64,000 nucleotides of DNA, from the IMG/VR virus record IMGVR_UViG_3300025133_000038, positions 55,351-119,350 of that record; one strand, 5' to 3'. Each line of letters opens with the position of its first letter. Position 1 is the first letter of the stretch. The translations under genes and the position numbers were made by a program. A model generated the notes under the pieces. That model saw nothing but the letters and a program-made list of their open reading frames with translations. It was not told the origin of the DNA and ran no database searches. Below, in pieces: positions 7,746 to 51,600 of this stretch. This DNA comes from a virus.

Positions 7746-8425
7746 TGGAAAGAATACTAATGCCGTATGAGCAAGGGAAAGTCCTTGTTAATGAGGCTGA
7801 CGTTCTATTATTTAGGGGAACTGGTTGGGCTAGTTATTTTTTAAGCCGAAGCGGTAAGAGTACGTACACCCATGTAGCTATGGCCTCATGGATTAATGGG
7901 CGTGCTAATACCCCTGATGGTATTCTTGAGTGTGTAGAATTTAGGGAGGGCAGCCCTGTAGCGGGGCTGTTCAACTCTAATGCTGCTGGTAGTGGGCGTG
8001 CCGTTAACTTGAGCCGGGAAGTTGATAAATATCCTGGTTGTATTGACGTATATCGCCCTATACCCTATTGCACTAAGTGGGTCTTTGATGAAGAGAACGA
8101 AGACCTCAAATTGGAAAGAACATTCCTTGTTCATAAGGATGTTACAGATACAATGAGAAGGCTTACAGGTCTTCCCTATGGTTGGAGAAGAATCTGGTGG
8201 CTTGCCAAGCAAAGCATGGCTGGCTTCAGATTGTTCACAAACGTAGAAAGCCTACAGGATGATGAAAGCGGAGACATAATCTATCCAGTATGCAGTACTG
8301 CTGTCGCCTATTGCTTTAATAAAAACGGGTTCGACCTTATCAATAACAAGTCCGACGAGTGGACAGAACCAGGGGACGTTGCTCGTTCAGCGAGACTTTC
8401 TTATCTTTTCACGCTCGAACCTTGA
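7745..8425 (+). CDS. permuted NlpC/P60 (YiiX-like) papain-fold hydrolase
   Basis: 226 residues. The order of catalytic residues is that of circularly permuted NlpC/P60 enzymes: an N-terminal histidine in the segment ADVLLFRGTG...TYTHVAMASW, and the cysteine later in YPVCSTAVAYCF. Members cleave peptide or amide bonds, often in cell-wall peptides or lipids. It lies directly after a membrane protein gene, which suits a lysis or injection role, but no signal peptide is visible. Conventional endolysin domains are not found elsewhere in the window, so it is a candidate endolysin. Confidence 0.62.
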   Translation: MERILMPYEQGKVLVNEADVLLFRGTGWASYFLSRSGKSTYTHVAMASWINGRANTPDGILECVEFREGSPVAGLFNSNAAGSGRAVNLSREVDKYPGCIDVYRPIPYCTKWVFDEENEDLKLERTFLVHKDVTDTMRRLTGLPYGWRRIWWLAKQSMAGFRLFTNVESLQDDESGDIIYPVCSTAVAYCFNKNGFDLINNKSDEWTEPGDVARSARLSYLFTLEP

Positions 8426-8449
8426 CAAAATCGCTTTATCCTCTATAAT
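8422..8449 (+). promoter_or_regulatory. sigma-70-type promoter (TTGACA-N16-TATAAT)
   Basis: TTGACA at 8422-8427 and TATAAT at 8444-8449, with a 16-base spacer. It lies at the 3' end of the hydrolase gene and 40 bases before the ATG at 8489. CCTTGACAAAATCGC is shared exactly with the promoter at 25947. Confidence 0.85.
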
Positions 8450-12506: not shown

Positions 12507-12534
12507 TTGACAGGGCCGAATCATCCTCTATAAT
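12507..12534 (+). promoter_or_regulatory. sigma-70-type promoter upstream of phoH
   Basis: TTGACA 12507-12512 and TATAAT 12529-12534, 16-base spacer. It shares TCCTCTATAATA with the promoter at 8422. TTCG (12500-12503) and CGAA (12517-12520) flank the -35 as an inverted repeat. The leader to the ATG at 12556 is only about 15 bases. Confidence 0.85.
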
Positions 12535-23777: not shown

Positions 23778-24875
23778 ATGGGAATGCCTATAACGTATTT
23801 TAGAAGCAGTAGTTACAATGGCTGGGACATGTGTCCTATGCAGTACATGATTGAATATGTCTTAGGGCATAGAGGTAAGTCAGGTCTTGCAGCAGACAAG
23901 GGAACTATTGTCCACAAGGTACTTGAAATAATAGCTAATGCTAAGATTGCCCATCAGGGTGGACTAACATCAATTACGGAGACTGACATTGGTACTCATA
24001 CCTGGACTGTTCACGAGGATACCATCCTTGACGAAGAACAGGTTGATGAGATTACCAACGTGGTCTTTGAATACTATAAGACGAGGACTCCACACAAGTG
24101 GGCTCCTAAGGACTACCGTGACGTTCACAAGTGGGTACAAAAAGCACTCGCTCTGAATGATGGTGAGTTTGACCCTCGTAACAAAGATATTGTTGAGGCT
24201 GAGGCCCGCTTTGACTTTGAGATTGAGGAGCCTTGGGCTTACTATAAGTTGGATGAGGTAGAGGGCTTCCTTGCTTTGAAGGGAACTATTGACCAAGTTA
24301 ATAGGGTGGACGATACTACGTTAGAAATCCTTGATTGGAAGACAGGGCGTAGGCTTAACTGGGCGACTGGCAAAGAGAAGGATTATGCTGCTCTGTGTAA
24401 AGACCCTCAGCTACGTATCTATCACTATGCTGCGCATAAGATGTGGCCTGAGATTGAGCAGATACTAGTGACCATCTACTTCATTAATGATGGTGGGCCT
24501 TTCACGGTGTGCTTCGGACCTGAGGAATTAAAAGAAACAGAGAAGATGCTACAGAAGAGATTTGAGGAGATTAAGACCAATGAGATGCCTCAAAAGAAAG
24601 TCTCTTGGAAGTGTAGTAAGTTCTGTGGTCAAGGTAAGAGTACGTTTGAGGGGACTACCAACAAGGAGGGTGGTGACATCAAACCTCTTATTCAAAGGCA
24701 GGATGGTCACGTTACAAAGGCTGGACAGGTGATGTCTAAGTGTGAACAGACCGACTATGCACTAAGACACAAGGGTATGGAATCAGTAATTAAAAATATG
24801 ACCGCCGATGGACACGAGGTTGCCTTTTATAAGGCTCCAGGCGAGGTCGAGGAGGAGAAAAAAGATGAAGCGTAG
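23778..24875 (+). CDS. PD-(D/E)XK exonuclease (Cas4/RecB family)
   Basis: 365 residues. The RecB-type nuclease core is visible: YFRSSSYNGWDMCPMQYMIEY (N-terminal QxxCP-like block with a cysteine), GTIVHKVLE (catalytic His), LKGTIDQVNRVDD (GxxD) and EILDWKTG (D-x-K). Downstream cysteines (WKCSKFC ... CEQTDY) could complete a Cas4-like iron-sulphur site. It would process DNA ends for RecA-dependent recombination. The C-terminal 40 residues overlap the Tat-exported protein gene by 11 bases. Confidence 0.82.
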   Translation: MGMPITYFRSSSYNGWDMCPMQYMIEYVLGHRGKSGLAADKGTIVHKVLEIIANAKIAHQGGLTSITETDIGTHTWTVHEDTILDEEQVDEITNVVFEYYKTRTPHKWAPKDYRDVHKWVQKALALNDGEFDPRNKDIVEAEARFDFEIEEPWAYYKLDEVEGFLALKGTIDQVNRVDDTTLEILDWKTGRRLNWATGKEKDYAALCKDPQLRIYHYAAHKMWPEIEQILVTIYFINDGGPFTVCFGPEELKETEKMLQKRFEEIKTNEMPQKKVSWKCSKFCGQGKSTFEGTTNKEGGDIKPLIQRQDGHVTKAGQVMSKCEQTDYALRHKGMESVIKNMTADGHEVAFYKAPGEVEEEKKDEA

Positions 24876-25476
24876 AACATTTATGAAGGCAGTAGCAGCG
24901 ACTACTAGCCTTGTAGTCTTGCCTTTTAAGGCATTAGCTAAGAAACAACCTATGAGTTGGGAATATCCTGCGATAGGTAAGATTGAGAGTATCTATTGCT
25001 CTAATGATATTTCTTCTTCTGTTATGTTTAATGGTGGTCCAAGTTATGAGCTTCCTCGTAAGAATGGTCCCTATATTAGATGGATAAACTTTCCTATCGA
25101 GACTATGCTGGAGATAAACTTCGAGAACGAGGCTTGTATTGTCTACAAGGGGTTTAACTTCAAGCGAGAGCAGATAGAAGGTAAGACACTAGATGAGATG
25201 ATTCACCATGTTAAAATATCAAAGATGGGTATCTCAGAACTATACTTAGATAAAAAGAATTGCTTTAAGATGAGCAGCGTAACCTTTCCAAACCCAACAA
25301 AGGAAACGATTGTAGTAAACCTAGAAGACTTAGGTTTGGGAGACATGAGGAGGGTTCCTAATGATAATGCTCCACGCATCACCTATGAGACATTGTTTGA
25401 TGGAAAGCCTGCTAGTGAGGTGGATTTATCTCGTTACCGAGAATCGGAAGCCGAAATACTAAAGAGGTATATTTGA
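24865..25476 (+). CDS. Tat-exported protein of unknown function
   Basis: 203 residues from the ATG at 24865, chosen for the GGAGGAG site seven bases upstream. The N-terminus KRRTFMKAVAATTSLVVLPFKALA is a twin-arginine signal: the RRTFMK motif, a hydrophobic stretch and an A-x-A cleavage site near residue 25. The mature protein begins KKQPMSWEYPAIG and has no recognised domain. Tat export implies folding in the cytoplasm before transport to the periplasm, which is rare for phage proteins. It lies in the replication block, between a nuclease and a MazG-like gene. Confidence 0.7.
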   Translation: MKRRTFMKAVAATTSLVVLPFKALAKKQPMSWEYPAIGKIESIYCSNDISSSVMFNGGPSYELPRKNGPYIRWINFPIETMLEINFENEACIVYKGFNFKREQIEGKTLDEMIHHVKISKMGISELYLDKKNCFKMSSVTFPNPTKETIVVNLEDLGLGDMRRVPNDNAPRITYETLFDGKPASEVDLSRYRESEAEILKRYI

Positions 25477-25928
25477 TGCACCCTGGATGGCCTGCATATT
25501 GGGCTGATTACAAGAGGTGCCTGAGGGCACAAGGAATTGAAGTAAAGGAACCAAAGATGGACCTGACATTTAAGAAGTTGGCAGAAGGGCTAAAGGAAAG
25601 CAACAAGAACTACTTTCCTCATGCTCGTAAGTGGACTGGGTCGGACTGGATGACAGCCCTATGTGGTGAGGTGGGTGAAGCCGCCAACATAATCAAGAAG
25701 ATTAACCGTGGTGATTTTAAAACAGAGGAAAAACTAGCTATCGCCCATAAGGAACTAAGCAAGGAGTTTGCTGATATTCTCATGTACTTAGAGCATATCT
25801 CTCGTCACTATGGTATAGACCTAGAGAAGGCAGTTCTTGACAAGTTTGAGGAAGTTATGACTCGCGTTGACAGCGACCTTTCTCTCAGAGAAAAAGATGA
25901 CAAAAAATCGGTTTACCCACAATATTAG
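25476..25928 (+). CDS. MazG-like nucleotide pyrophosphohydrolase
   Basis: 150 residues. The all-alpha NTP-PPase pattern is present: TALCGEVGEAANIIKKINRG (E-x2-E metal site), then KELSKEFADILMYLEHISRHYGID (E-x2-D). Such enzymes hydrolyse dNTPs or (p)ppGpp-related nucleotides to monophosphates. In phages they are proposed to adjust host starvation signalling or nucleotide pools. The start ATG overlaps the upstream stop as TGATG; AAAGAGG precedes it. A promoter for the polymerase follows the stop. Confidence 0.78.
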   Translation: MHPGWPAYWADYKRCLRAQGIEVKEPKMDLTFKKLAEGLKESNKNYFPHARKWTGSDWMTALCGEVGEAANIIKKINRGDFKTEEKLAIAHKELSKEFADILMYLEHISRHYGIDLEKAVLDKFEEVMTRVDSDLSLREKDDKKSVYPQY

Positions 25929-25946: not shown

Positions 25947-25974
25947 TTGACAAAATCGCCTTTCGCCCTATAAT
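25947..25974 (+). promoter_or_regulatory. sigma-70-type promoter for the polymerase operon
   Basis: TTGACA 25947-25952 and TATAAT 25969-25974, spacer 16. GCGA (25941-25944) and TCGC (25956-25959) flank the -35 as inverted arms. Leader about 35 bases to the ATG at 26016. Confidence 0.85.
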
Positions 25975-26015
25975 ACCCAAAGACAACTTGAGACTTTTCA
26001 CAAAACGAGATTGAT

Positions 26016-27896
26016 ATGAAAACTTATACACCACTACATTGTCATACTCATTACAGTCTACTTGATGGCCTATCAAAGCCAGAGAAGGTAGCTGAGAGAC
26101 TTGACGAGATAGGTGTTGAGGCGTGTGCTATCACAGACCACGGTAATATCAGTGGTAGTGTGGCCTTCTCTAATGCCCTAAGGGGCCATGAACGCCCTAA
26201 GAAATCTATTCTTGGGTGCGAACTATATGTTTGTAGTGAACATGCTACTATTCAAGTTCCAGAGAACCAAAAGCTACTACATCTTCCAGTCCTAGCTAAG
26301 AACAAGGCTGGTTGGAACAAGTTAATTCACCTAACTAGTAGTTCTAATTCCTCGGAACACTTCTATCATAAGCCCCGGCTGTCCCTAGACCAGATAACGG
26401 AGTATTCTGGTAACCTTATTGGCTTCAGTGGTCACCTGGGTTCCCATATTGCCTCCTCTATCCTGGTTGATGGTAAGCCCCATGATAACTGGCGTAAGCA
26501 AACAGCTAAGCTAGCCGAATGGATGCGAGACTGTTTCGGTAAGGACAATTTCTACCTAGAAATCCAACTAATGGACCACGTAAGCAATCCCCTACAGAAG
26601 GTGGTAGCAGACTGCGTGCGAACAATTAGTAAGGACACAGGTATCCCCTGCATTGCTACTCCTGACGCCCACTATGCTAGGTCAGAAGACGCAATCGACC
26701 AGAGGATTCTTCTCTGCACCAACTTGAGAAAGACTCTAACTGAGTGTTATAACGATAAGAATCAAACTATGGGTTGTTTCTTCAAGTCTGAGAATTATCA
26801 CATCCCTTCATACGAAGAGATGCTTTCATATGGGCATACTGAGGAAGAGTTAGATAACACAATGGCTCTGACTAGTACTGTTGATGACTATCAGATTGTT
26901 GGCCCTCCTATTTTCCCTCAGTTTGAATGTCCTGGTGGCATTAGTGCTGATGACCACCTAAGGCAGATGTGTAGGGATGGTTTTAGGCAAAAGGTACTAG
27001 AGAAGGGATTAGATACAGCCCAATATGGGGCTCAGGCAGACAAAGAACTTAAGGTATTTGTAGATGCTCAACTATCTGCGTACTTCCTGATTGTTCAGGA
27101 TGTTCTACAGTTTTGTACTGATAAAGGGTGGATGTTAGGACCGGGGCGTGGCTCAGCAGCAGGCTGTCTAGTCTCATACCTGATTGACATTACTCAGATT
27201 GACCCTCTTCCACATGAGTTGTGGTTTGAGCGATTTTATAACGCTGGCCGTAATAGTGCTGACCATGTATCTATTCCTGATATTGATATGGACGTGCCTA
27301 TCACCAAGCGGGCGGCTGTTATTGACTATTTAAAAGAGAAGTACGGGCAAGACAAAGTCTCTCAGATGATTACCTATCAGACAATGAAGGGTAGTGGGGC
27401 GTTGAAGGCTGTACTAAGGGCTCACGGTGGTGTTCCGTTCGAGATGATGAACGAGATGACCAAGAACATGCCTGAGGAGGCTAAGATTTCCAGTGAGCTT
27501 CAGGCGATGAAGGATGCTACTGGTAGTGCCTCTATTATTCAGTGGGCGCTGGAGAACAGAGCGAAGGATTTTGCTGACTGGGTGACGATGGATGACGAGG
27601 GTAACCTTGAGGGTCCATTCGCACAGCGGTTTGAACAGGCTATGAGACTAGAGGGTACTAAGGTAGCTCAGTCTAAGCACGCTGCTGGTGTAGTTATTGC
27701 ACCGGAGGCCCTAAGTAACATCTGTCCGATGGTACTGGATACAAAGAGCAAGGAACGCAACATGATTGCGGGACTTGAAATGAATGACCTTGAGGCGTTA
27801 GGCTTAATCAAATTTGATGTACTTGGCATTGCTTACTTGGATAAGATTATGGGTATTCAGGACATTCTTGGGACAGGGGAGATTCAGTGTGCGTAA
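26016..27896 (+). CDS. dnaE: DNA polymerase III alpha subunit, N-terminal half (PHP and palm)
   Basis: 626 residues. The PHP domain opens with HCHTHYSLLDG. The polymerase active site follows: GPGRGSAAG at 375-383 and the catalytic aspartates in PDIDMD at 421-426. KHAAGVVI and LGLIKFDVLGIAYLDKIMGIQDI are the last conserved blocks before the frame stops after GEIQCA. In intact DnaE the next block is VFQLES plus the fingers, and here that lies 2 kb downstream (29892). The polymerase is therefore encoded as two polypeptides that must assemble. Confidence 0.93.
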   Translation: MKTYTPLHCHTHYSLLDGLSKPEKVAERLDEIGVEACAITDHGNISGSVAFSNALRGHERPKKSILGCELYVCSEHATIQVPENQKLLHLPVLAKNKAGWNKLIHLTSSSNSSEHFYHKPRLSLDQITEYSGNLIGFSGHLGSHIASSILVDGKPHDNWRKQTAKLAEWMRDCFGKDNFYLEIQLMDHVSNPLQKVVADCVRTISKDTGIPCIATPDAHYARSEDAIDQRILLCTNLRKTLTECYNDKNQTMGCFFKSENYHIPSYEEMLSYGHTEEELDNTMALTSTVDDYQIVGPPIFPQFECPGGISADDHLRQMCRDGFRQKVLEKGLDTAQYGAQADKELKVFVDAQLSAYFLIVQDVLQFCTDKGWMLGPGRGSAAGCLVSYLIDITQIDPLPHELWFERFYNAGRNSADHVSIPDIDMDVPITKRAAVIDYLKEKYGQDKVSQMITYQTMKGSGALKAVLRAHGGVPFEMMNEMTKNMPEEAKISSELQAMKDATGSASIIQWALENRAKDFADWVTMDDEGNLEGPFAQRFEQAMRLEGTKVAQSKHAAGVVIAPEALSNICPMVLDTKSKERNMIAGLEMNDLEALGLIKFDVLGIAYLDKIMGIQDILGTGEIQCA

Positions 27897-28842
27897 ATCA
27901 AGACACAAAGATATGTCTCGTCAAAAATTTCATATGTTTACTCTTATAAAGAGGGTGGAGAATACTAAGCATGGAGAAGTAAAATATTTATGTGAATGTG
28001 ATTGTGGAACAATAAAAGAGGTTGTTTTATCACACCTAAGAAGAAATAGTGTGAAATCTTGCGGCTGTAAGAGAAGAAGTAGTCTAGAGGGTAAAAAATT
28101 TGGAAGATTATTGGTTAAAAAATATTCCCACACAGATAAGCATCGTTGTATGAGATGGGAATGTTTATGTAAATGTGGAAATATCTGCTATCCAACTTCT
28201 GCCCATTTAACTACTGGCACTGTAAAGTCTTGCGGGTGTTTAGTCGCAAAGAGCAATCAAATTAAATTGGATAATATAAAACAGGATAGGGTTTTAAATA
28301 ATAATTTAGCAAAACTACATCCTAACCTTTGTTTAATATGGGATTATAAAAAAAACAACAAAACGCCAGAAGAATTTACTAGCGGCAGTGGAGAAAAAGT
28401 GTGGTGGACTTGTGATAAACACGAGTCTTATCTACAAACTATATATGCTAAGTCTAAAAGGAATCATACTTGTCCAAAATGTAAGGTTTCCCATGGAGAA
28501 AGACGGATAATATCTATCCTAGATAAGTTAAAGATAGAATATTTATTTGACCAGAAAGAAAATAAGTATAAAGAGATAGAAGATTGTAAAATAGATTTTT
28601 ACCTACCAAGGTTTGACCTGTATGTAGAATATCATGGGCGACAACACTATAAAGCTATTGATATTGGAGTATGGGGAATAAAATCCAAAGAAGAAGGTGA
28701 AGCTAGATTGAAGAAACAACAGATAAGGGACCAATTGGTCCGAGACACACTAGGTAACAAACTACTAGAAATTCCATACTGGGATTTCGATAATATTGAA
28801 ACTTTAATTTTGGAGAAATTAGAATGGTTAAAAGAGAACTGA
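27889..28842 (+). CDS. homing-type endonuclease (Vsr/EDxHD) inserted in dnaE
   Basis: 317 residues from the GTG at 27889, preceded by AGGGGA at 27875-27880. Two copies of a cysteine-rich DNA-binding module are visible (ECDCG ... SCGCK, then GKKFGRLLV ... CLCKCG ... SCGCL). A zinc-ribbon repeat follows (LHPNLCLIWDY ... WWTCD ... CPKC, DUF4379-like), and then a Vsr-type nuclease core (KIDFYLPRFDLYVEYHGRQHYK). This resembles the EDxHD homing endonucleases known from fractured phage genes. It overlaps the end of the dnaE N-terminal half by 8 bases, exactly where the polymerase is split. Its DNA looks more AT-rich than its flanks, consistent with later acquisition. Confidence 0.85.
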   Translation: MRKSRHKDMSRQKFHMFTLIKRVENTKHGEVKYLCECDCGTIKEVVLSHLRRNSVKSCGCKRRSSLEGKKFGRLLVKKYSHTDKHRCMRWECLCKCGNICYPTSAHLTTGTVKSCGCLVAKSNQIKLDNIKQDRVLNNNLAKLHPNLCLIWDYKKNNKTPEEFTSGSGEKVWWTCDKHESYLQTIYAKSKRNHTCPKCKVSHGERRIISILDKLKIEYLFDQKENKYKEIEDCKIDFYLPRFDLYVEYHGRQHYKAIDIGVWGIKSKEEGEARLKKQQIRDQLVRDTLGNKLLEIPYWDFDNIETLILEKLEWLKEN

Positions 28843-29204
28843 AGTTTAAAGACCTAAGCGAAGGAGAAATCTTTAAGCATAACGGTAGATGGCTAAAGAA
28901 AGTTCGTCCTCATGGATTGCTCTGGGCTCCAAAGAAGAACGCTACTGAAGTTAACACAGGAGATGAAGATTTCTTTGTAGATGATTCAACCCTAGTTAGC
29001 GTCGATAGCGAACTACCACAAGTAGACGAAGCCCCAGAGATGGAGCAGGTATTTGAACAAGGGCAACTTGAGTGTGAAGACCCACTTGGAGTAGAGAAAA
29101 CCCCTGAAAAGTCAGACCTAACCTTTGACTATGGTAGTTCTGAAGAGGATTCTGAAAAGGGCTGTGATGAAGACTGCGATGAAGGTTGCGGGAGTTGTGA
29201 CTAA
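28824..29204 (+). CDS. hypothetical acidic protein with cysteine-rich C-terminus
   Basis: 126 residues. The N-terminal 40 residues (LKFKDLSEGEIFKHNGRWLKKVRPHG) look like a small SH3-type or beta module. The rest is highly acidic, ending in a Cys/Asp-rich tail (CDEDCDEGCGSCD) that may bind metal. It lies between the homing-type endonuclease and the exonuclease inside the split dnaE. Overlaps of 19 bases and one base couple it to both. No family recognised. Confidence 0.6.
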   Translation: MVKRELKFKDLSEGEIFKHNGRWLKKVRPHGLLWAPKKNATEVNTGDEDFFVDDSTLVSVDSELPQVDEAPEMEQVFEQGQLECEDPLGVEKTPEKSDLTFDYGSSEEDSEKGCDEDCDEGCGSCD

Positions 29205-29911
29205 TGAATTTCAAAAACATCGTAGTCTATGACTGGGAGACAGACTCACCTAAACCTGAGACCTGCAACCCAGTCCAACTCGGTGCTGTAGTTATCAACC
29301 CTCGTAAGCTAGAGTTCATTAAAGGTGCTGAGTTTAACTCAGATATGAGACCTCTAGACATTGATGATGATGACTATTTCGACCGAAACAAAAGCACCAT
29401 CGAGTGGCACTCTAGAATTTCTAAGTGTTCAACTGATGAGGTTATTGCAAGATGGAAGGCAGCTCCTTCACAAGAGTCGGTATGGCGTAGTTTCACTCAG
29501 TGGCTATCAAAGTATCACCTAAAGCAATCTCGTCAGTCTAAGTTCACGGCCCCTATTAGGGCTGGGTATAACATTCTCAAGTTCGATGATGTTATCACTC
29601 AGAGAATGGCCGAGAAGTATGGTGACGTTGAAAAGGATGGGACAATCAAGATTTGGTCACCTAGAGACCACATTGACTTGCTCCCTATGATGTTCTGGTG
29701 GTTTGAGAACCAAGAAAATCCTCAGAAGTATACTATGGATGTAATGAGACCCTACTTTGGCGTTAGCGCTGAGAAGGCTCACGATGCCCTTAAGGATGTA
29801 TATGACGAAGGCCAGATACTAATTAAGTGTCTACAGACACAACGATGGCTGACTGACAAACTACTTACCCAAGGAAAGTTAGGTCCGAAAAGTGGAAAAG
29901 TTCAAGTTTAA
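29204..29911 (+). CDS. DEDDh 3'-5' exonuclease (DnaQ/ExoI-like)
   Basis: 235 residues. The exonuclease motifs appear in order: VYDWETDSP (D-x-E), GYNILKFDD (Asp of motif II) and KAHDALKDVYDEG (H-x4-D, motif III). This is the proofreading family. Lying between the two halves of the polymerase, it is the natural candidate for the epsilon-like proofreader. A separate role such as exonuclease I cannot be excluded. Its 3' end overlaps the C-terminal polymerase gene by 20 bases, so the two are translationally coupled. Confidence 0.82.
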   Translation: MNFKNIVVYDWETDSPKPETCNPVQLGAVVINPRKLEFIKGAEFNSDMRPLDIDDDDYFDRNKSTIEWHSRISKCSTDEVIARWKAAPSQESVWRSFTQWLSKYHLKQSRQSKFTAPIRAGYNILKFDDVITQRMAEKYGDVEKDGTIKIWSPRDHIDLLPMMFWWFENQENPQKYTMDVMRPYFGVSAEKAHDALKDVYDEGQILIKCLQTQRWLTDKLLTQGKLGPKSGKVQV

Positions 29912-31553
29912 CTACTGTGATTGTGAATTTCCCTGCACTGGCAGCGGAGATGATTTGAAGATTATCTTCAATCCTAGTCTCGAAAGCATCCCTATGTACT
30001 GTGAAGCTACATGGGACTTGATTGGGTCTGGGAATACTAAAGGTGTCTTCCAATTAGAGTCTAGGTTGGGCCAAATGCTGGCTAAGAAGTTAAAACCTAG
30101 GAATATTGACCACCTATCGGCCCTTGTCGCCATCATGCGTCCAGGTTGTCTGGAAGCTATGCGTGATGGTAAGTCGGTTACCCAACACTACATCGACAGA
30201 AAGAATGATGAAGAAGCGGTGACGTATTTTCACCCCTCTTTGGAGCCAAGTCTACGTTCTACCTTTGGTGAAATGATTTACCAAGAACAAGCCATGCAAA
30301 TAGCGAGAGACCTAGCGGGTTTCTCTCTGCAAGAAGCTGACGTTCTACGTAAGGCCATCGGTAAAAAGAAGGCTGACATGATGAATAAGGTTGAATATAC
30401 CTTTATGGAGGGCTGTAAGTTCACTGGTGTTGTTCCTAATGATGTAGCTAAAGAAATTTTTGAGTGGATTCGTAAATCTCAGAGATATTCATTCAATAAA
30501 TCTCACTCCGTTAGTTATGCTTACAATGCATACCTATCGGCTTATACCAAGGCACACTTTCGGCGTGCCTTTTTTACCTCCTATCTTTATTATGCAAAGG
30601 AAAAGATTAAACCGCATGATGAGGTTAGAGAGTTAGTTAATAATGCAAGGACTATGGATGTAGACGTATATCCTCCTGACTTGCGTAAGCAGAATGCTCA
30701 CTTCGCCCTATTTGACCGCAAAGTATTCTTTGGTTTGGTTGATATTAAGGGTGTGGGTGAGTCTGCAATCACACGAATGACGAAGAAAATAGTTCAGGCA
30801 GAAGAAGAACTGGGTAGGCCAATCGAGGATTGGTGTTGGTCAGACTTCTTACTGTTCCTGTCCCAAAACATTAGCAAGACCGCTGTCGAAGCCATGATTA
30901 AGGTCGGGGCTTTACGATGGATGAACGTGTCACGTCAACGAATGTGGTTTGAGTTCGAGCAATTCTCTGCTGTCTCTGATAGGGAGCAGAAGTGGCTCAA
31001 AGAGAAGTATATAGATGATAGTCAGAGTGATATGAGCTGCTCTGAACTATTACAAATACTGTTGGACTCCCCTGTTGGGAGAAAAGGTGGTATATCCAAT
31101 AAGAATAGGCATAAGAAGGTGGTTGGTATCAAGGCAATAGTCGATAAGCCACCATCTAGCCTAGAGGATACGCCTGAGTGGATAGCCTCTGTTGAAGAAT
31201 CACTAATGGGAATTTCCATCACATGCACTGTGGTAGACTCGTGCGAAACGAGCGCTGCTAACACAACATGTAAAGATTTTAACAGTGGTACTAGTCGCAA
31301 AAACGGTATAATGATGGCTGTAAAAGTGGACGAGGTGAAAGAGATTACAACTAAGAAAGGGAAGAACCCTGGTCAGAAGATGGCCTTTCTTTCTGTTTCA
31401 GATAGTTATGGTGCTTTGGATTCTTGTGTCCTATTTCCTGACGAGTGGACTCAAAGTAGGGTGAAGCTGTTCATAGGCAACACTGTTATGCTTGGAGGCG
31501 AACGAGGTAAGGAAAAGGATAGTTTTATAGTTAATAAAGTTTGGCAAATTTAG
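29892..31553 (+). CDS. dnaE: DNA polymerase III alpha subunit, C-terminal half (fingers, HhH, OB)
   Basis: 553 residues from a GTG at 29892 with TTAGG eight bases upstream. After a short leader (FKFNYCDCEFP) it resumes at the DnaE block TKGVFQLES ... RPGCLEAM, then YQEQAMQIARDLAGFSLQEADVLRKAIGKKK and FNKSHSVSYAYNAYLSAYTKAHF (fingers). VDIKGVGESAI is the helix-hairpin-helix and MAVKVDEVKEIT ... SCVLFPDEW the OB fold. With the N-terminal half it totals 1179 residues, the usual size of a complete DnaE. No intein splice motifs are seen at either broken end. Confidence 0.92.
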   Translation: MEKFKFNYCDCEFPCTGSGDDLKIIFNPSLESIPMYCEATWDLIGSGNTKGVFQLESRLGQMLAKKLKPRNIDHLSALVAIMRPGCLEAMRDGKSVTQHYIDRKNDEEAVTYFHPSLEPSLRSTFGEMIYQEQAMQIARDLAGFSLQEADVLRKAIGKKKADMMNKVEYTFMEGCKFTGVVPNDVAKEIFEWIRKSQRYSFNKSHSVSYAYNAYLSAYTKAHFRRAFFTSYLYYAKEKIKPHDEVRELVNNARTMDVDVYPPDLRKQNAHFALFDRKVFFGLVDIKGVGESAITRMTKKIVQAEEELGRPIEDWCWSDFLLFLSQNISKTAVEAMIKVGALRWMNVSRQRMWFEFEQFSAVSDREQKWLKEKYIDDSQSDMSCSELLQILLDSPVGRKGGISNKNRHKKVVGIKAIVDKPPSSLEDTPEWIASVEESLMGISITCTVVDSCETSAANTTCKDFNSGTSRKNGIMMAVKVDEVKEITTKKGKNPGQKMAFLSVSDSYGALDSCVLFPDEWTQSRVKLFIGNTVMLGGERGKEKDSFIVNKVWQI

Positions 31554-31563
31554 TGAAACGACC

Positions 31564-31592
31564 TTGACAAATGGGTCGGTGGTGGCTATAAT
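31564..31592 (+). promoter_or_regulatory. sigma-70-type promoter upstream of ssb
   Basis: TTGACA 31564-31569 and TATAAT 31587-31592, spacer 17. CGACC (31559-31563) and GGTCG (31574-31578) flank the -35. The leader of about 48 bases carries GGAGG before the ssb ATG. Confidence 0.85.
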
Positions 31593-31646
31593 GCTACTAT
31601 GAAGTGTGTTTTTTGACAATAACAATTTTTTGGAGGAACAGAACTA

Positions 31647-32087
31647 ATGAATATCGTAGTTCTAAAAGGTAATCTCGCAAGAGACCCAGAATCGCGTGAA
31701 GTAACAGCAAACGGACGTACAACCACAGTGGTAAACTTTTCGATTGCAGTCTCTCGGTTCTTTAAAAAGCAGGATGGCACTAAGGATAAGGACGTAACTT
31801 TCATCGCATGTGAAGCATGGGATACTGGTGCGGAGACCATCGCTAAGTATGTGAAAAAGGGTGACCCCATCCTTGTTCACGGTTCGCTTAAGACCGAATC
31901 ATGGCCTGATAAGGACAACCCAGAAAAGAAGCATTCTCGAACTAAGGTTCGCGTAGAACGCTTCGATAAATTGTATCGGGCTCCTAAGAATGAGGATGGC
32001 ACCTATGTCAACTCCTCAGCAACTTCGGAACCTGTTCCTGCTAACGCTGGACCATCCGATACAGAGGGAGACGACATCCCGTTCTAA
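31647..32087 (+). CDS. ssb: single-stranded DNA-binding protein
   Basis: 146 residues. The bacterial-type SSB OB fold (VVLKGNLARDPESREVTANGR, NFSIAVSRFF, DVTFIACEAWDTGAETIAKYVKKGD) is followed by a flexible linker and the acidic tip GDDIPF, the docking peptide for SSB partners. Strong ribosome site GGAGGAACAG. It coats single-stranded DNA at the fork. The stop overlaps the second sigma factor start (TAATG). Confidence 0.95.
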   Translation: MNIVVLKGNLARDPESREVTANGRTTTVVNFSIAVSRFFKKQDGTKDKDVTFIACEAWDTGAETIAKYVKKGDPILVHGSLKTESWPDKDNPEKKHSRTKVRVERFDKLYRAPKNEDGTYVNSSATSEPVPANAGPSDTEGDDIPF

Positions 32088-42635: not shown

Positions 42636-45600
42636 TTAAGCTCCTGAACAGTCTACTATTGGCACTCTAACTAAACAACCATCAGTATCTACACCCAAGA
42701 CATAAGCAACCCCAGTACCACTAGCTATTGGGGCACTATTAACATCTATTCCCATTACAATGCTACAGGCATCTGAACCAGTGTCTGCTACTAATCCTGC
42801 TCCAAGCTCAATATTACTTATCAAGTTAGAGGCTGAAACATCTCCAGAACTAATACATGTATTGTTTTGAGTAATGCTTAATCCTGCGCCAATTTTAATT
42901 TCACAATCATTATCCCCATCTTCTACATGTAAACCCCCATGAAATTCGATAGCATTCATTAGACCAGGATTAGCAGATAAAGTTCCTGTTAAACAACCGC
43001 TTCCTGTGGAAGGGGTAAATCCAGCATTAAGAACAATGCTTGATGGGTTACAACAAGCATCCACCCCAGTATCAACAGCAAAATTGTTAACAAGGTCAAG
43101 GCCCTTTCCTACAACAATATGTCTAACGTCGTATGCTGTTAAACTAGACTCACCAACCGTTGCTCCTGTTGGACAGCCAGTTCCATCATAAAAAGTAACA
43201 CCCTTCTGGGGTTGATTGACGATATTATAACTACAGTCTTCAGCGTCATAATCAGCCATGATAGTGTCACCAGAGCAGGCTGTAACACCAATAAGATTGT
43301 CTACATAAAAGGCTGCATCAAAAGGATTTCCACTACAATCATATCTTGTTGTATTATCTGTAAGATGACATAGTGCTGAGCCACCAGGGCATAGGTCTTC
43401 TTGCAATATACCATGAACCAATGTATAGGCTGGTGGAGATACCCAAACAGCCCTATCCCTATCGTAACGTAAGTCGATTGGTGCTACGGGCCAAGTCTGA
43501 GGCTGTCTCAAGTGGTCATCAAGAAATTTACACTCTAGATTAGAAGAAGTAAAAGTTCCAGTGCTTGCATTGGCATAAGTATCTGCTTTATTCGGTACAG
43601 GAAAACCATCTAAATCATAGCCCCACGCCTGCATTAGAATAGGTCCACGAGTAGCAAACATTCTATAGTCGTCTTGATAGTCCCCGCTCTCTTGGCTTGC
43701 ATTGTCTACATATCCCTGAATGGGCATCACCATACTAGACGCTGGTGGACCATCACCAGTACCAGAACCTTGACGACCAATAATCTCTATATGATGACCA
43801 CGGTCAGTAGTATCACTCCTGTTTGTAGAAATCTGACTTCTTTGTTTACCAGCAGGATTAGTGAATGGGTTCAAGTAATCAATATCAATAGTTGGATTGT
43901 ATTCGTCCAAAGCTCCACCAGCAGCACCTTGTTTATCCATTGGTGGCTGAGCCCTACGAGGATGACCAGAGGTACACCCAGCATCAGGAGTAGCATACTG
44001 AGGAAGACCACCATCACCATCCATAGAGACAGGCATAATCAGTCCGTCCCAAGACATAAAGGCTTTTGTATCATACCTAGCGAACTCTGTTACCATTTCT
44101 CTAGCTGATTCGTCTGCTATATTAGACCTTCTAAAGTTTGTTCCAGTACCCCAAGGGTTTGAAGAACCAACCAAGACTACGTGAGGGGTTGATGATTCTT
44201 TTGAACCATCTTGGTTTAATCTTATCCCAAAATTATTCTTTCTGAATGTAGCAAGATTTTGAGATGATTGACTCCTAGCTTTTATTCTTTGTCTATTAAA
44301 AGCTCTCATCTCTTTACTAGCATTTAACCGATTTTGCCCTGCTGCTTTTAGTCTATCGGCATTATACTTAGCGAACCTGCCAAACTTAGGGGTATAAGTC
44401 CTCATTGTATAGGTTGTGGTAAACCCACTAACACCCACACTAGTGGTTACCCCTGTAATATTAGGCCCGTATGTGCCGTCCCATGAGCCAATAGTAGTAC
44501 TGACATACTGACCATAAGAACCACCCGTAACAGTAAGAGTTCTATTCTCATATAGGTTGTTTCCACCACCATTAAAAGGACCGGCTCCAGCGAATCCATT
44601 TGCAGCGCTTGCAGATAGAAGCTCAGCACCAATCGGAACAGTTGGATAACCAGGGATGTTTAAACTACCCTTCTCTCCAACCTGCATAGAGGTAATACCC
44701 TCTGTGGACAGTAGTCCACCAGCAGTATTCATACCAGAGTAACTACCGTATGACCAAGGAACAAGACCTTCTTCGTGAACTACATTTGCTTTTCCTGCAA
44801 CAGTAGAAGAACCATAAGGACCATATTTCAAAGCATTACTCTTAATGCCAACAGCCGCAGCAATAGGCATTTTTGACTTATATCCATATTCCCCATATAC
44901 ACCTCGTCCACCAACCTTTTTCAGTGCTTCTTTCTCTCTTTCTGCCATAGCAGCCTTAGCTACCTCTGTTGAGTTTTCGATAGCAGGAGCCCAATCTATT
45001 AACTTTCCTTCTCCTTCGTCCTCAACGTCGTCAACATTACCAGAAATAGTTAATATAGCTCGGGGAGAAGCAAGGGTGTATTTGTTAGTATAAACAAAGT
45101 CAGCTTCTATCTGAGCTTTGACCCACAAGTCTTTATTGACCGCATCTACTACGAACTCGTCAGGATTAAGAGAAGCAAAATCTGTCTTATCTGCACTATC
45201 AAACCTCACAAAATTCATAAACCTACCATCTTCATGGCGAAAATAATCAGCAGCAACAGAAGGATTAGTTATTCCTATTACAGTAGACAGTTCTGTCCAA
45301 CCACCATCACTAGGTTCCTCACTGGTTTGAATCTCCCCACCCCATCCAACAAAAGCAGCATCTTGACTGGTTGCTATATATCCACAAGAATTAGGGACTA
45401 GAACTTGAAACTTCTTGCCGTAAAATTCGGTAGCATAATTATGAACAAAATCAAAAACCTTTTGTAAAGCCCATCTCAGCTTATCATCATCTACATCACC
45501 AGCTTTAAACTGCGCCCCACCAAGATTAACTATATCAGTAGCCTGAATTTCATCAACAGGGATTCCAGTTAAAGCCTGAAGCATGTCTAGTCTAATTTTA

Positions 45601-47069
45601 CCCTTACCATAACCATCAGACCCAAACGCAGTATATAAATCTGTAGCGACCTTCATTGCCGAAGCACCAACCCATATTTCCATACCCCCAAGAGCAGCTC
45701 TTAGCTCTCTTTCAGTAATAGTAACTGAGCTAACACCCATAGCTAAACCATAATCAGCAAGCTGAATGTTTAAATTTGTAATATCTGCTTCAAATTGCCA
45801 ATTACCACTAGCATCTCTAGTTGGGACAATAACATTTCCGTCTGAGTCTAATCCAAAATACGGAAGAACAACCTCATTACCAGGACCAACCCCATTTTCA
45901 GTTTCGTATATATTCTGCTTCTCTCCACCAACAATTAACTGTTGGGTCTTCTCATTGCGAAGCTCTCGACCCACTTGATTCTTAATGGTTCCTGAGCCAA
46001 CAGCATCAGTAATAGTTATAAACTCTTCAATAGCACCGAATAATGGTTGAGCATCACGGTCTGACGTGCGAATTTTGATAATCTTAACTATGTCTTGACT
46101 ATCAACCACAGTATTTGTCCAACTAGCACCAGTTGCATCAACAGGCACCAGCTCTACATAATAATCGTGACCGGAGATTCCAGTTACTTGAGAAATAAGT
46201 TCTTGCAGAGAAGAGGCTACCCCGTTCATTCTAATCTGAGCTGGAAGAGTTGGTACTTCTGAGAAGTCTACCACATAGTGGGCTTCATTGGTGGCGTTTT
46301 CGTCTAAAAGGCCCATACCTGAGGTAAGACCAGTGACACCTGAGTAGCCTGTATTAGATGTTCCTTTGAATGCTATATAACCTGTAGAGAATACTCCCCC
46401 AAGGGCACCTACAGTACTGGAACCACTTAGAAGAACCTCTGCGCCCGCTCGAATGTTATTCCAGGGCATACCATTAGAGTCAACATCAGACCCACCGAAA
46501 CCTGCTGCTGGTGAACCAAAGATAGTGCCGTCTACGCCCTGAGCAAGGGGACCGCAATTAGCTGAGAGAGCTTCCATGAAACCGTAGGCATTAACGATAT
46601 TGTCTAAGCCTGTTGTAAAGCCAGCATATTCATTGATAACTACCTGGGTGGCGGCTAGTAGCTCTCGGGGGTCTTCTATCTTAACAACATAAGCATTGTT
46701 ATTAATCATAGATTTGACAGGCAGGCCAGTATTAAGAGAGCGAATATCTGTCTTAGACCAGTCTGAGATTAGACCACTAAATTCAAAATCACCCACTCTA
46801 AAGTAAACTGGGGCACCAACAATATTGTTCTCTTCTCCAATAAAGCCTGGGTCTGCACCTGTCCACGTCTGTTGGTTTAAGGAGCGGTCGTAGTATTCTT
46901 TACTTCCTCCGCAAGGGTCTTGGATTAGCTGAACTGTTAGCTCAGACTTCTGCTCTCCCCAACCTGCGCCTGCATCAAACGATACGACACTACAGCCCAA
47001 GAATAGGGTCTGAGTAATCCCTCCGAAGACGCTCGCTGGCGTACATGTATTTTTTACTGGTAGTACCAT
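42636..47069 (-). CDS. large distal tail / tail-tip protein
   Basis: 1477 residues. The N-terminal region (about 1-130) reads as a tail-hub-like beta domain (PVYFRVGDFEFSGLISDWSKTD, DPRELLAATQVVI). Long beta-rich and Gly/Ser-rich regions follow, with a coil-forming segment near 950-1000 (RFAKYNADRLKAAGQNRLN). The C-terminal 300 residues are cysteine-rich and repetitive in IxLGAGLxxDTGxDACSI-type units (VVGKGLDLVN, IKIGAGLSITQ, IELGAGLVADTG), like a tail fibre with repeated beta segments. Position after the tape measure and before the small cysteine-rich gene fits a tail hub with attached fibre. Confidence 0.7.
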   Translation of the reverse strand: MVLPVKNTCTPASVFGGITQTLFLGCSVVSFDAGAGWGEQKSELTVQLIQDPCGGSKEYYDRSLNQQTWTGADPGFIGEENNIVGAPVYFRVGDFEFSGLISDWSKTDIRSLNTGLPVKSMINNNAYVVKIEDPRELLAATQVVINEYAGFTTGLDNIVNAYGFMEALSANCGPLAQGVDGTIFGSPAAGFGGSDVDSNGMPWNNIRAGAEVLLSGSSTVGALGGVFSTGYIAFKGTSNTGYSGVTGLTSGMGLLDENATNEAHYVVDFSEVPTLPAQIRMNGVASSLQELISQVTGISGHDYYVELVPVDATGASWTNTVVDSQDIVKIIKIRTSDRDAQPLFGAIEEFITITDAVGSGTIKNQVGRELRNEKTQQLIVGGEKQNIYETENGVGPGNEVVLPYFGLDSDGNVIVPTRDASGNWQFEADITNLNIQLADYGLAMGVSSVTITERELRAALGGMEIWVGASAMKVATDLYTAFGSDGYGKGKIRLDMLQALTGIPVDEIQATDIVNLGGAQFKAGDVDDDKLRWALQKVFDFVHNYATEFYGKKFQVLVPNSCGYIATSQDAAFVGWGGEIQTSEEPSDGGWTELSTVIGITNPSVAADYFRHEDGRFMNFVRFDSADKTDFASLNPDEFVVDAVNKDLWVKAQIEADFVYTNKYTLASPRAILTISGNVDDVEDEGEGKLIDWAPAIENSTEVAKAAMAEREKEALKKVGGRGVYGEYGYKSKMPIAAAVGIKSNALKYGPYGSSTVAGKANVVHEEGLVPWSYGSYSGMNTAGGLLSTEGITSMQVGEKGSLNIPGYPTVPIGAELLSASAANGFAGAGPFNGGGNNLYENRTLTVTGGSYGQYVSTTIGSWDGTYGPNITGVTTSVGVSGFTTTYTMRTYTPKFGRFAKYNADRLKAAGQNRLNASKEMRAFNRQRIKARSQSSQNLATFRKNNFGIRLNQDGSKESSTPHVVLVGSSNPWGTGTNFRRSNIADESAREMVTEFARYDTKAFMSWDGLIMPVSMDGDGGLPQYATPDAGCTSGHPRRAQPPMDKQGAAGGALDEYNPTIDIDYLNPFTNPAGKQRSQISTNRSDTTDRGHHIEIIGRQGSGTGDGPPASSMVMPIQGYVDNASQESGDYQDDYRMFATRGPILMQAWGYDLDGFPVPNKADTYANASTGTFTSSNLECKFLDDHLRQPQTWPVAPIDLRYDRDRAVWVSPPAYTLVHGILQEDLCPGGSALCHLTDNTTRYDCSGNPFDAAFYVDNLIGVTACSGDTIMADYDAEDCSYNIVNQPQKGVTFYDGTGCPTGATVGESSLTAYDVRHIVVGKGLDLVNNFAVDTGVDACCNPSSIVLNAGFTPSTGSGCLTGTLSANPGLMNAIEFHGGLHVEDGDNDCEIKIGAGLSITQNNTCISSGDVSASNLISNIELGAGLVADTGSDACSIVMGIDVNSAPIASGTGVAYVLGVDTDGCLVRVPIVDCSGA

Positions 47070-47088: not shown

Positions 47089-48624
47089 TTAACATACTGT
47101 TGTGCTGCCAGTACCAGAGCATTCCTGATATGTCCAGCCAATATTCCTACTATATCGTCCTTGTTGTGCGACCCAAGATTCATTATCTTGATGTTTGAAT
47201 ACTTGGTCAGCAGCGTCCGTTAGCTCCGTTTGGAACTCACATAAAATGTCTGCTACTCCAGACTTAACTTGGTCTCTATAGGCATTCCAGAGAGTAATAG
47301 AGCATCCTGTTGGAGGGTCAACGAGAACCTCAATGGAAACGTCTCTCTTCAACTCAGTGGTTGTACTTATCTCCTGCAAGACTGGACCATTAGGTCTTCC
47401 TAAGACAGGAATAACAGCAAAGACATCTGTGTGATTGGAGTCATTCACCGTAATAATTTCACTTAGTACGCTTCCACTTAAAGAACCTGTTTCAAGCAGG
47501 AAGCAAACTCTGTTGTCGTACTCATATGTATAGTTTATTGCACCCTTGGCCTTAGCGTGGGCGATTGTATAGCTTAGGGCGTCTGTGTGTAATGACCTAT
47601 TCAAAGAGAGTGGGTCTGACACGGCTTTAGCTCTGGCATATAGCCTATTCTGTACTGTTGACCAGTATGAGGAGGCATTGGCATATTTATCTGTGGTAAT
47701 AGTAAAGTCACCTGGGTCAGTACCATAGTCTCTCACTTCCAACCCTTGAATACTACCTTCAACTCTAACGGTAGTGTTAGGACTAGACTTAGCTGTCGTT
47801 ACAGTGACGGTAAAGTCTTCCGTTGCCCCGGCAGAAGCTAATCCTGAGATACCAGTATTAACTAATAGCCAAGTCTCTGTTGCTGCAAACGAACCATTAA
47901 CCTCATCCTGATTGTTGGTTCTCATATGGCTGTAGACGCCTAAATCACCAACGTCTACATTAATAACACCGCTAGCACCATCGCTAATTCGAGTTGAATC
48001 ATAACCTAGTCTCGGAATAACCCAGTCTCTAGCCTCTTCCCACCCATCACTACTGTATCCACCACTACCTGTACCAGAACACATAGCGATACCTTCTGCT
48101 GAAAGCTCATGCGTTAATACTAAAGCATAAGGAGTAGCGTCTTGTCCTGTATCAATAGTCTCTGTATACTGACTGTATTCATCCGCAAACTCTAAGCTCC
48201 AAGACTCACTAGTAGCTTTTACATTCTCTGTATAGTTAGTAGACTCACCAACTTCAACAGCGAACTGTAGAGTTATTGTAAACTCAGTAGTTAGTGTCCA
48301 ATTGTTATTGCTCGTACTAAACTGAGGAGGTGTTACAATCTTAGGATATGCCCTAACAATATCTACAGCCCCACACTGAACTAAGAATAATTGACAATCA
48401 TCTTTAAAAGCATCTCTTAGGGCATCAATCCTAGTCTTAAGGTTTTCAATACCCGCATCGCCCTGAAGATTGTTTGACGCTACTATAGTACCTGTAATTG
48501 TGACAGATGTAACCTCTTGAATTGGAGAATCATCACCAGACCTAGTTATTTCCTTAGAAATCTCGATAAAAGGAACGGGCGAAAATGAATACGCTCCGTA
48601 TGTCATCGTTGTTGTTGCTGCCAT
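47089..48624 (-). CDS. distal tail protein (Dit-like position)
   Basis: 511 residues. Beta-rich, beginning MTYGAYSFSPVPFIEISKEITRSGDDSPIQEVTSVTITGTI, which resembles the opening of tail-completion or distal tail proteins. Low in basic residues. The gene lies directly after the tape measure (start/stop overlap TAATG-like) and before the tail hub, the usual place for Dit. No further domain recognised. Confidence 0.65.
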   Translation of the reverse strand: MAATTTMTYGAYSFSPVPFIEISKEITRSGDDSPIQEVTSVTITGTIVASNNLQGDAGIENLKTRIDALRDAFKDDCQLFLVQCGAVDIVRAYPKIVTPPQFSTSNNNWTLTTEFTITLQFAVEVGESTNYTENVKATSESWSLEFADEYSQYTETIDTGQDATPYALVLTHELSAEGIAMCSGTGSGGYSSDGWEEARDWVIPRLGYDSTRISDGASGVINVDVGDLGVYSHMRTNNQDEVNGSFAATETWLLVNTGISGLASAGATEDFTVTVTTAKSSPNTTVRVEGSIQGLEVRDYGTDPGDFTITTDKYANASSYWSTVQNRLYARAKAVSDPLSLNRSLHTDALSYTIAHAKAKGAINYTYEYDNRVCFLLETGSLSGSVLSEIITVNDSNHTDVFAVIPVLGRPNGPVLQEISTTTELKRDVSIEVLVDPPTGCSITLWNAYRDQVKSGVADILCEFQTELTDAADQVFKHQDNESWVAQQGRYSRNIGWTYQECSGTGSTTVC

Positions 48625-51600
48625 TATATTGTTCCTTCTTGAGTTTCACCAGTGATTGGGTTGATACTATTTCCAAGAGCTTCTCTTACCTGAGTAGCAA
48701 TCATATCTTGAATTGGTTCCTCGATGTTAGCAAGAGCCTCTGCTCCGTTAATATTCACGTTGACCTGAACTGGTGCAATCTGTACCTCTATGGTTTCTGG
48801 AATGGTTAAGTTGGCTAGCGTCTGAGCTGCCTGATTCAAAGTAGTTACCGCCTGAGTAAACCCATCTAGAGATGGAACTACTGTAGCTAGTTGAGCAGTA
48901 GCAGTAGCAAAGCCATTTAGGGCTGTTTGAGAGGAGGCGTCTAGCTTCATCTCTGATTGTGTTCCTCCAGCGCTTGGTGCAGAGAAAGGAAGGTTTTCTT
49001 GGGAACCATCAGCAAATCCACTTACTTTCTTACCTCTATTCATTGCTTGTAGCACTGCTAGGTTAGCCTGAACACCCTTCTTGTTCACTACGAACTCTCC
49101 TGGTGTTAGCATTGCGGGAATACTATCTGTATTTCCAATACCTGGAACTCCACCGCCTGTGTTATAGGCAGACCTTCTACCTCCTGGGCGGCGCTTTTTA
49201 AATACAGGGGTCTCCTCAGGTTTAGACCTAGAAGTGGCTACTGGTGTGTTATACAGAGATGTATCACTACCAAAACCCCTAGCTCTTATTCTTTGTTGAG
49301 CCTTTATAGTAATCCCATTGCTGCTTTCTTGAGAAGCTTGAAACTGCTCAGCGTGCTTGGCTTGAGATTCTCGTAGTTTGCTAGCTAATGCCCACTGCCC
49401 ATCTTTTTCTAAGCTTGCAACAATTGAGGCTATTCTGTCGCTGTTTCTCTTACTAGGTCCAAAAGTAGCTAGTTGCCTTAACTCAAATCTAGCATTATCA
49501 ATGGAGTTACGAGTTCTTGTTGCTTCTGCGGTTCCTTTAACGCTTCTGTCTTGAACTGCTTGTCTAGCTGCAACCTTCGCGTCAAACTTCGCTCCTATTT
49601 TATCAATAAGTCCTTTGTGTCCGTTTTCTCTTTCTTCTCTTCTCTTTTTTACACTTTCTGGTTGGACAAACCTAGGCCCAGTTCTTCTGTTTGTGCTTAC
49701 TCCAGGAGTAAGACCCCTTCTTCCTCTAGCCCTACTAGCACCACCAGCAGTTGGTCCACCAGCTTTTGCAATGCGAGCAGCAGTTCTGTCTGCACTTGTT
49801 GCCTCAAGAGGTAATCCTAGTGCTTTATTTGCTCTTTGAGCAGCCTCATCAGCGCCAAAACCCTGAAGGGCTTTGTCTACCGGGGTAAGACTTTCTATAT
49901 TAGCTTTTCTAGCAGCTATAGTCGCAGCTCTATCGGTTCTTTTCTTTTCATTCTTAGCTATTAGAGCTTCTCTTTTTTTCTGGGCAATCTCTTGAGGTGT
50001 CAATCTTTTACGATTAAAGCTTACTCTTGAGTTGTTACTATTACTATTCTCTTCTTCAAGAGCTTTGTCAATCTGAGCCCCTAAGTGCTGAGGCCCTTCT
50101 CCAGGAATAATTTTATTGGCTCTTCTTTGAGCTTCTTGTTCAGAAACACCGTCTTGCCTTGAGAATCTACGAACTATCTCATCTCTACGCTTCTTATCTT
50201 CTGCCCTCTTAATATCTTGATTAGTAGCAGTGCTTGGGTCTAAACCTAAGCTTTTAGCTTTAGCATTCCTTCGACCTCTTGCCCCAAATCCACCGGAAGG
50301 ACCATAAACATCTCCTCGTCCAAACCCATTTTGAACAATAGATTGAGCGTGTGAGGCAAAGAATCCTTGACCAGGGCCTGAACTTTGGGTTTGAACTTGG
50401 TCTGACTTATCCTCTTCAGGGTCATTAAAACCAAACAGTTTTCTACCTGCATTAAAAAGACTGCCTAATAATCCGCCACTAGCTAATCTTACTCCTCCGC
50501 TATTGATAGCACTCAGTAATCCACTATGCCTATTGGCAGCAGTTTTGTTTACTACGAACTCACCAGGGGTAAGTTTAGCATTGACAGTGTCTGTGTTTCC
50601 CGCACCAGGAACGCTACCACCCTTGTTCAAATGCAACCTAAAGATGTCAGGGTCTGTGTAATTAATAGGAGAAGCAGGAGTAGGTGCCGAAGCTGGGTCG
50701 TACCTTAAGACTCCTGTCGTGGGAGTATGGGCCTGACTTGCTAATTGAGTAGGAGTTAAGGAGCTGTTTTGCCTCTTTTGTATGGCTTTATTTTCTGCAT
50801 CTCTAAGCTGATTTCCTTTTTTAACCACAAGACGTTCTGCATCTAATTCTTTTTGGCTTGCGATAGTGGCTTGATTACGAGCCTTATACAAAGCTTCTTG
50901 AGCAGCAGCAACGGCTTCTGGGTCTTTACTTCTTTTTATGTTTGCTATCTCGTTCGTAGCATCTTTTCTTACTTGAGCTTTTGCCGCTGCCTTTTGAGAG
51001 AAATCTAATCCTTCTTCTTGAAGTTCTCTTATCTTTCTCCTTCTCTTGTTCTGTTGAACTACAGTTCCTCCTTTCTTCTCAGTTAAAGCATCAGCTTCTT
51101 TAAACTTTGCATCAGCTTTATCCGTAAGTTCTTTTTCAGAAGCAGTCTTTCTAGTTAAAGGCTCTAGTTTTGCAATACGAGCTTCCTCAGCTCTAGACAA
51201 GGGTTTCTTTGCCTTATCTAATTTAGTCTCAGCAGCAAGAACCCTTGCGTCTGCCGCATCAGTATCTGACTTAGCTGTGCGAAGAGCGCCTTCAGCCTCT
51301 TTAAGAGTTTTCTTGGAGGCAAGAGTGCCGTCTTCATCTATTTTACCTGCTTCAAGAGCTTTCTTTCTTTCCGCAGCATCTAATTTAACAGCAGTCTCAA
51401 AAGCCGTAACCCCAGCAGCAAAAGCACTAGTAGTTTTATTCCATACCTCAGGAAGTTTACCAGCCATATAATCAGCTTGAGCCTGTTGAGCTTTTCGCTG
51501 TATCTCAAAGACAGCTTTCATCTGAATTATAAGCTCTTTTTCTCCAGAAGTTTCACCTTTATCTGTGCTAGCTAATCCCTCAATCGTTTGACCGTCACCA

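Follow-up and report, generated by a model that had tools for sequence, protein, structure and literature searches.

Split C-family polymerases in phages

Split catalytic subunits of DNA polymerase III (PolIII alpha, DnaE) have been described in phages before. The group 2.2 jumbo phages encode a minimal PolIII alpha in two distant genes, in addition to a family B polymerase (Iyer et al. 2021, PMC7824862). Here we analyse a stretch of 64,000 nucleotides, positions 55,351 to 119,350 of the virus record IMGVR_UViG_3300025133_000038 (the window), in which dnaE is divided into a gene for an N-terminal half (N-half) and a gene for a C-terminal half (C-half), with a DEDDh exonuclease gene between them. 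As in the jumbo phages, the C-family catalytic subunit is encoded as two separate proteins and no intein is involved (PMC7824862). The jumbo-phage enzyme, however, consists of the catalytic and template-binding core without PHP or any other PolIII domain (PMC7824862), whereas the chains encoded here are full PHP-palm-thumb and fingers-HhH-OB chains. The jumbo-phage genes lie apart and are accompanied by PolB; here the exonuclease sits between the halves and no PolB was found in a viral record that may be incomplete. With PHP and HhH present and no match to PF00136 in the record, the locus does not correspond to the jumbo-phage minimal core.

The closest likeness in the position of the break is found in Rossellomorea phage phiT1 (PV767480, gp20/gp18, L182:2658-5940), in which the same palm-fingers linker of DnaE is the site of the cut, giving two open reading frames (ORFs) in one operon. 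In contrast to our locus, the gap of phiT1 holds a 49-residue ORF and no exonuclease, and phiT1 falls outside the family described below in the tree, so its split is apparently an independent cut. Two-ORF DnaEs without an intein also occur in Microbacterium phages OverHedge and Ajin and Mycobacterium phage Papyrus, but with the break between PHP and core, and in Bacillus phage Jayan and Cellulophaga phage phiST, but with the break just before PDIDMD. None of these five has an exonuclease between the halves, although in Jayan one follows the second half. Cyanobacterial DnaE is likewise encoded by two genes, but there a split intein trans-splices the products into one chain, and no intein parts are seen here. 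PolC and the Bacteroidetes DnaE1 carry a built-in exonuclease domain (PMC3919608); they share with our locus the genetic tie between a C-family polymerase and a DEDDh-type proofreader, which is built into the polymerase chain there and encoded by a separate gene here. Split phage PolIII alphas being known from jumbo phages and phiT1, the kind of arrangement is known. As far as these sources show, two features are new: a large uncultured clade in which a full-domain two-chain enzyme is fixed, and an exonuclease encoded in the gap. No published description of this split-DnaE family was found in the open-licence literature.

Two chains cover the catalytic core

The genes of the split polymerase and its gap are as follows.

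26016..27896, + strand: DnaE N-half, 626 residues; PHP with 9/9 metal ligands, palm with D422, D424 and D601 as catalytic aspartates, thumb
27913..28842, + strand (likely extent; longest ORF from 27814): homing-type endonuclease with CxCG modules, treble-clef DUF4379 and an E-x-H-G-x-x-H nuclease end
28824..29204, + strand: 126-residue protein with an acidic tail; its first ~60 residues resemble a small ORF found at the same position in many relatives
29204..29911, + strand: DEDDh 3'-5' exonuclease, 235 residues, with invariant D10, E12, D128, H193 and D198; likely proofreading subunit
29892..31553, + strand: DnaE C-half, 553 residues; Cys motif, fingers, HhH, OB; begins within the exonuclease gene, at its 3' end

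The initial annotation had placed the split DnaE at these coordinates with an endonuclease, a small acidic protein and a DEDDh exonuclease in the gap, and our analysis finds the same genes. The end of the acidic protein gene overlaps the exonuclease start, and the end of the exonuclease gene the C-half start. In domain searches the N-half matches PHP (3e-35) and, at 5e-66, the PolIII alpha core; the C-half matches fingers (2e-44) and HhH (2e-10). The two halves tile TIGR00594, an NCBI model of the one-chain enzyme with 1022 positions: the N-half spans 1-571 and the C-half 581-1021. In the alignment with Thermus aquaticus DnaE the N-half ends at residue 625 and the C-half starts at 647. We therefore place the break in the palm-fingers linker, with a complete catalytic core: PHP, palm, thumb, fingers, HhH and OB are present in order over two chains, and all three catalytic palm aspartates lie on the first. 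The claim that both halves together equal a full DnaE is thus borne out for the TIGR00594 region, but not for the C-terminal (tau-binding) domain, which was not detected in the C-half. Likewise, the split stands as annotated, but the C-half does not restart at VFQLES. It starts at a GTG codon at 29892, ~50 residues ahead of that block, and its likeness to intact DnaE begins at its residue ~30. The AlphaFold2 model of the C-half alone has a mean predicted local distance difference test score (pLDDT) of 94.9, and DnaE structures are its top structural matches.

The split is an old and conserved state

Scans of viral sequences with single proteins returned only the same two contigs, and alignment queries were needed to reach the family. 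With a C-half alignment we obtained at least 80 viral contigs, among them the window phage, the others being 34-57% identical; exonuclease scans and a basal C-half scan enlarged the set to at least 178 distinct loci, most at 30-57% protein identity. Best-scoring matches are over-represented among the loci listed, and the family is larger than counted. In the first set, the order N-half, exonuclease, C-half was found in 78/80 contigs listed, with none fused. It recurs in 168/178 distinct uncultured-virus loci listed, again without any fused N-half, exonuclease or C-half ORF. A recurrence far beyond chance of this kind speaks for a stable, ancient design and not for a broken gene.

Four loci have the N-half and exonuclease without a C-half in the stretch fetched: the contig of L158 ends within the C-half start, and L133, L140 and L152 have >1 kb of other sequence after the exonuclease. 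The stretch of L222 begins at the C-half. Five loci are basal (L095, L097, L189, L190 and L192). In L097 the halves are ~1 kb apart, with macrodomain-like and uracil-DNA-glycosylase-like genes between them (names read from sequence). In the other four they are ~5-12 kb apart with other genes between, which in L095, L189 and L190 look like sugar- and methyl-transferases. The family exonuclease was not found in the records of the five basal loci, which may be incomplete.

In a maximum-likelihood tree, obtained by a quick search without bootstrap and with long branches for phages phiST and Epa7, the family (33 rows) forms one side of a branch with a Shimodaira-Hasegawa-like approximate likelihood ratio (SH-aLRT) support of 100. 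L095 and L097 group together, separate from the other family rows, and intact and otherwise split phage DnaEs fall outside. The palm aspartates are invariant in 66/66 N-halves. Between the window and L003, a phage of 95-97% nucleotide identity to it, the ratio of nonsynonymous to synonymous substitution rates (dN/dS) is 0.075 for the N-half, 0 for the exonuclease and 0.048 for the C-half. Purifying selection, invariant catalytic residues and a single origin of the split lend support, at the level of sequence, to the proposal of a fixed and functional architecture. 

Very probably, then, the family has a fixed two-chain C-family replicase that assembles non-covalently, with a likely proofreader in the same operon. 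A replicative DnaE would have been turned into a stable two-subunit enzyme, with PHP, palm, thumb and all catalytic aspartates on one chain and fingers, HhH and OB on the other. Both chains would be translated separately from one operon without splicing and would pair through the normal palm-fingers contact. The split would have arisen once, in the ancestor from which a large clade of uncultured tailed phages descends; in most of these descendants the exonuclease would have become fixed in the gap, most likely as the proofreading subunit. The endonuclease would be a selfish element that entered the intergenic gap recently.

Several points weigh against this two-chain replicase. Pairwise protein distances of the N-half, exonuclease and C-half genes correlate at r ~0.90 (64 loci), as genes inherited together would be expected to; shared ancestry alone could produce this. 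Association of the two halves is a step that we infer, as are polymerase activity, the proofreading role and operon transcription. The contig may be incomplete, and a second polymerase could be missed. By predicted structure, DnaQ is no closer to the exonuclease than exonuclease I and RNase T are. 

If the halves do assemble, a replicative polymerase can keep its active-site palm and its fingers on different chains over deep divergence, and the family would offer a natural system for studying the construction of C-family polymerases. For annotation, 'half dnaE' genes in viral metagenomes should not be taken for fragments.

The exonuclease and the PHP domain

The gap exonuclease satisfies the description of the DEDDh superfamily, with D-x-E, D and H-x-A-x-x-D motifs and an RNase H-like fold, and D10, E12, D128, H193 and D198 are invariant in 80/80 aligned sequences. 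Its AlphaFold2 model (pLDDT 94.1) matches the folds of exonuclease I, the PolC exonuclease domain, RNase T and DnaQ. No relative in cultured phages was found by tblastn at 1e-5. A role as epsilon-type proofreader is likely on the basis of gene order, PHROG name and the PHP pattern. An exonuclease in the gap, annotated as a proofreader, is present in the 168/178 listed loci, but was not found in the five basal relatives; it is a nearly constant part of the gap that is dispensable or was acquired later.

The PHP pattern is as follows. Full-PHP N-halves with a gap exonuclease have all nine metal ligands in 33/43 cases, while L045, L053 and L093 have a full PHP with most ligands lost. In a subclade of 21 sequences the PHP domain is ~100 residues shorter and the metal site is lost (0-1/9), with the exonuclease present in all.

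Short-PHP N-halves: L064-L069, L071-L075, L077-L079, L081, L083, L085, L086, L089, L090, L096

The basal N-halves examined (n=4), from records without the exonuclease, have 9/9 ligands. Decay of PHP sites only where the exonuclease is present would fit replacement of PHP proofreading by the exonuclease, within a small exonuclease-less set from one clade. The Cys motif at the N-terminus of the C-half is found in 39/45 sequences with a full PHP vs 0/21 with a short PHP, a contrast confounded by clade. We consider it an open proposal, with chances a little short of even, that the family has a three-subunit replicase of palm chain, exonuclease and fingers chain, in which the exonuclease took over proofreading from PHP, PHP decayed or shrank several times, and palm and fingers were always separate in an ancient lineage. 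Mutual exclusion of PHP and epsilon-type proofreading has been raised as an open question (PMC3919608). It is directly testable in this family, since some members have the exonuclease and others do not, and PHP sites are intact in some and lost in others.

The best-surviving alternative accepts the two-chain polymerase but regards the gap exonuclease as a separate recombination or nucleotide-recycling nuclease that became fixed there. E. coli exonuclease I gives the best structural matches, and basal gaps hold other genes such as those for a uracil-DNA glycosylase and a macrodomain protein. However, DnaQ and PolC exonuclease domains match as well, the PHROG family of the protein is named 'DNA polymerase exonuclease subunit', PHP metal sites decay only alongside it, and its position is kept in 168 loci listed. 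A separate nuclease is thus unlikely, at perhaps one chance in a handful.

As a side observation, the gap is a variable cargo site, with uracil-DNA-glycosylase-like, GroES-like and dehydrogenase-like genes (from sequence) besides the exonuclease (L049, L097, L107, L109, L110; L106; L108).

Improbable alternatives: rejoining or independent action of the halves

The halves could also be rejoined into one chain, through splicing of an intron that holds the gap genes, a cryptic split intein or translational bypass. Phage polymerase genes do acquire introns and inteins, inteins are present within the C-halves of L003 and L192, and the C-half overlaps the exonuclease gene. No Rfam family, and no intron, matches in 26000-31600 even at E<=5. 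The absence of intein motifs at the break, reported for the window, extends to the ends of both halves across 80 loci; the N-half tails beyond LDKIM are short and unconserved, and C-halves start without intein ends. The gap varies in content and in length, from overlap to >3 kb. In basal relatives the distance of 5-12 kb and the intact genes between the halves make cis-splicing implausible. Rejoining is accordingly very improbable. Two specific routes were rejected: an intron in the gap, with no Rfam match and with unrelated, variable gap contents among loci, and a frameshift fusion of exonuclease and C-half, whose junction is not conserved and ranges from overlap to >2.5 kb.

We give the same low weight to the halves not forming one enzyme and each acting apart, for example by pairing or interfering with host DnaE. 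Host factors would be needed anyway, because a search of the record for a beta clamp found none. Against this, both halves always co-occur where the record is long enough, they evolve in step, and all catalytic residues are kept.

Inteins within the coding halves were seen as follows. L003 has a 243-residue intein with an HNH-like core in its C-half at RPG^C (L003:7001-9391), which the window does not have. A basal relative (L192:5789-8623 and L264/L265, one record, G005) has a C-half intein near the L003 site (RPGPLE^C), and its N-half frame of 1153 residues has a ~1 kb in-frame interruption within PHP, probably another intein. A second N-half break near GPGRGSAAG/PDIDMD is found in L103:1861-4935, L057:3778-6120 and L027:3148-4933, with an endonuclease-like ORF inside it in L103.

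The endonuclease and the near-identical phage L003

L003 has a few bases where the window has ~910, and the endonuclease is absent. Its N-half stops at the same site (IQDILGTGEIQ, two residues, stop) and is followed by acidic protein, exonuclease and C-half. Since L003 and most other loci are split without it, the endonuclease is not the cause of the split. Relatives without the endonuclease that were split at a different place had been named as evidence against a fixed architecture; L003 and nearly all other loci are split at the same site. The comparison with genes fractured by EDxHD endonucleases is not upheld. The insert is AT-rich (33% GC vs 43-46% in neighbours), the endonuclease has no match among solved structures, and related ORFs lie in the gap of only four distinct loci among those listed (the window phage, L068, L094 and L130). 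It enters the gap only occasionally and stands outside the conserved architecture. 

Fractured genes with free-standing endonucleases were reportedly described by Dassa et al. in 2009. That dnaE was recently fractured by the endonuclease in the gap, and is decaying or tolerated by chance, can be practically dismissed given L003, the four loci, the strong selection and a split that predates the whole family.

The last ~34 nt of the N-half (window 27860-27896) differ from L003 at ~1/3 of positions, nearly all silently, and the stretch before them is nearly identical; a co-conversion or target-recoding footprint of homing is possible. Over the N-half (26016-27893) the synonymous rate dS between window and L003 is 0.27, ~5x the C-half value of 0.05, with clustered changes, which suggests mosaic recombination within dnaE. 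Just upstream of the N-half, the window encodes a MazG-like protein and one whose leader is twin-arginine-like (24808-25928); in L003 an unrelated gene of 126 residues takes their place (L003:3654-4034). This unrelated gene content marks the flank as a recombination spot.

Genomic context

The block is bracketed by the following features.

25947..25974, + strand: sigma-70-type promoter, perfect TTGACA-N16-TATAAT, upstream of the N-half
31564..31592, + strand: perfect TTGACA-N17-TATAAT promoter between the C-half and the single-strand binding protein gene that it precedes; marks the block end
31647..32087, + strand: single-strand binding protein gene after the C-half, as in L003, L095 and L097

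Four perfect sigma-70-type promoters are observed in 64 kb vs 0.04 expected, and two of them bracket the polymerase block. All four are TTGACA-N16/17-TATAAT sites on the + strand (8422-8449, 12507-12534, 25947-25974 and 31564-31592), and three of them share a 16-nt spacer and the CTATAAT end. They are likely early or middle operon promoters. Neighbouring genes encode a DnaB-like helicase, a Toprim protein, RecA, single-strand binding protein, a sigma-70 region 2 protein and ribonucleotide reductase. PolA, PolB (no PF00136 match) and a beta clamp were not detected in the viral record, which may be incomplete.

A close isolate of the family was not seen in 50,697 phage records; the best-ranked match of the window C-half is 30% identical and all are <60%. 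Metagenome-assembled genome bins of family contigs point to Flavobacteriales (2), Chitinophagia, Alphaproteobacteria and SAR202, and with bins this inconsistent we name no host. On the - strand of the window, a 3044-residue ORF (48624-57758) adjoins one of 1477 residues (42636-47069).
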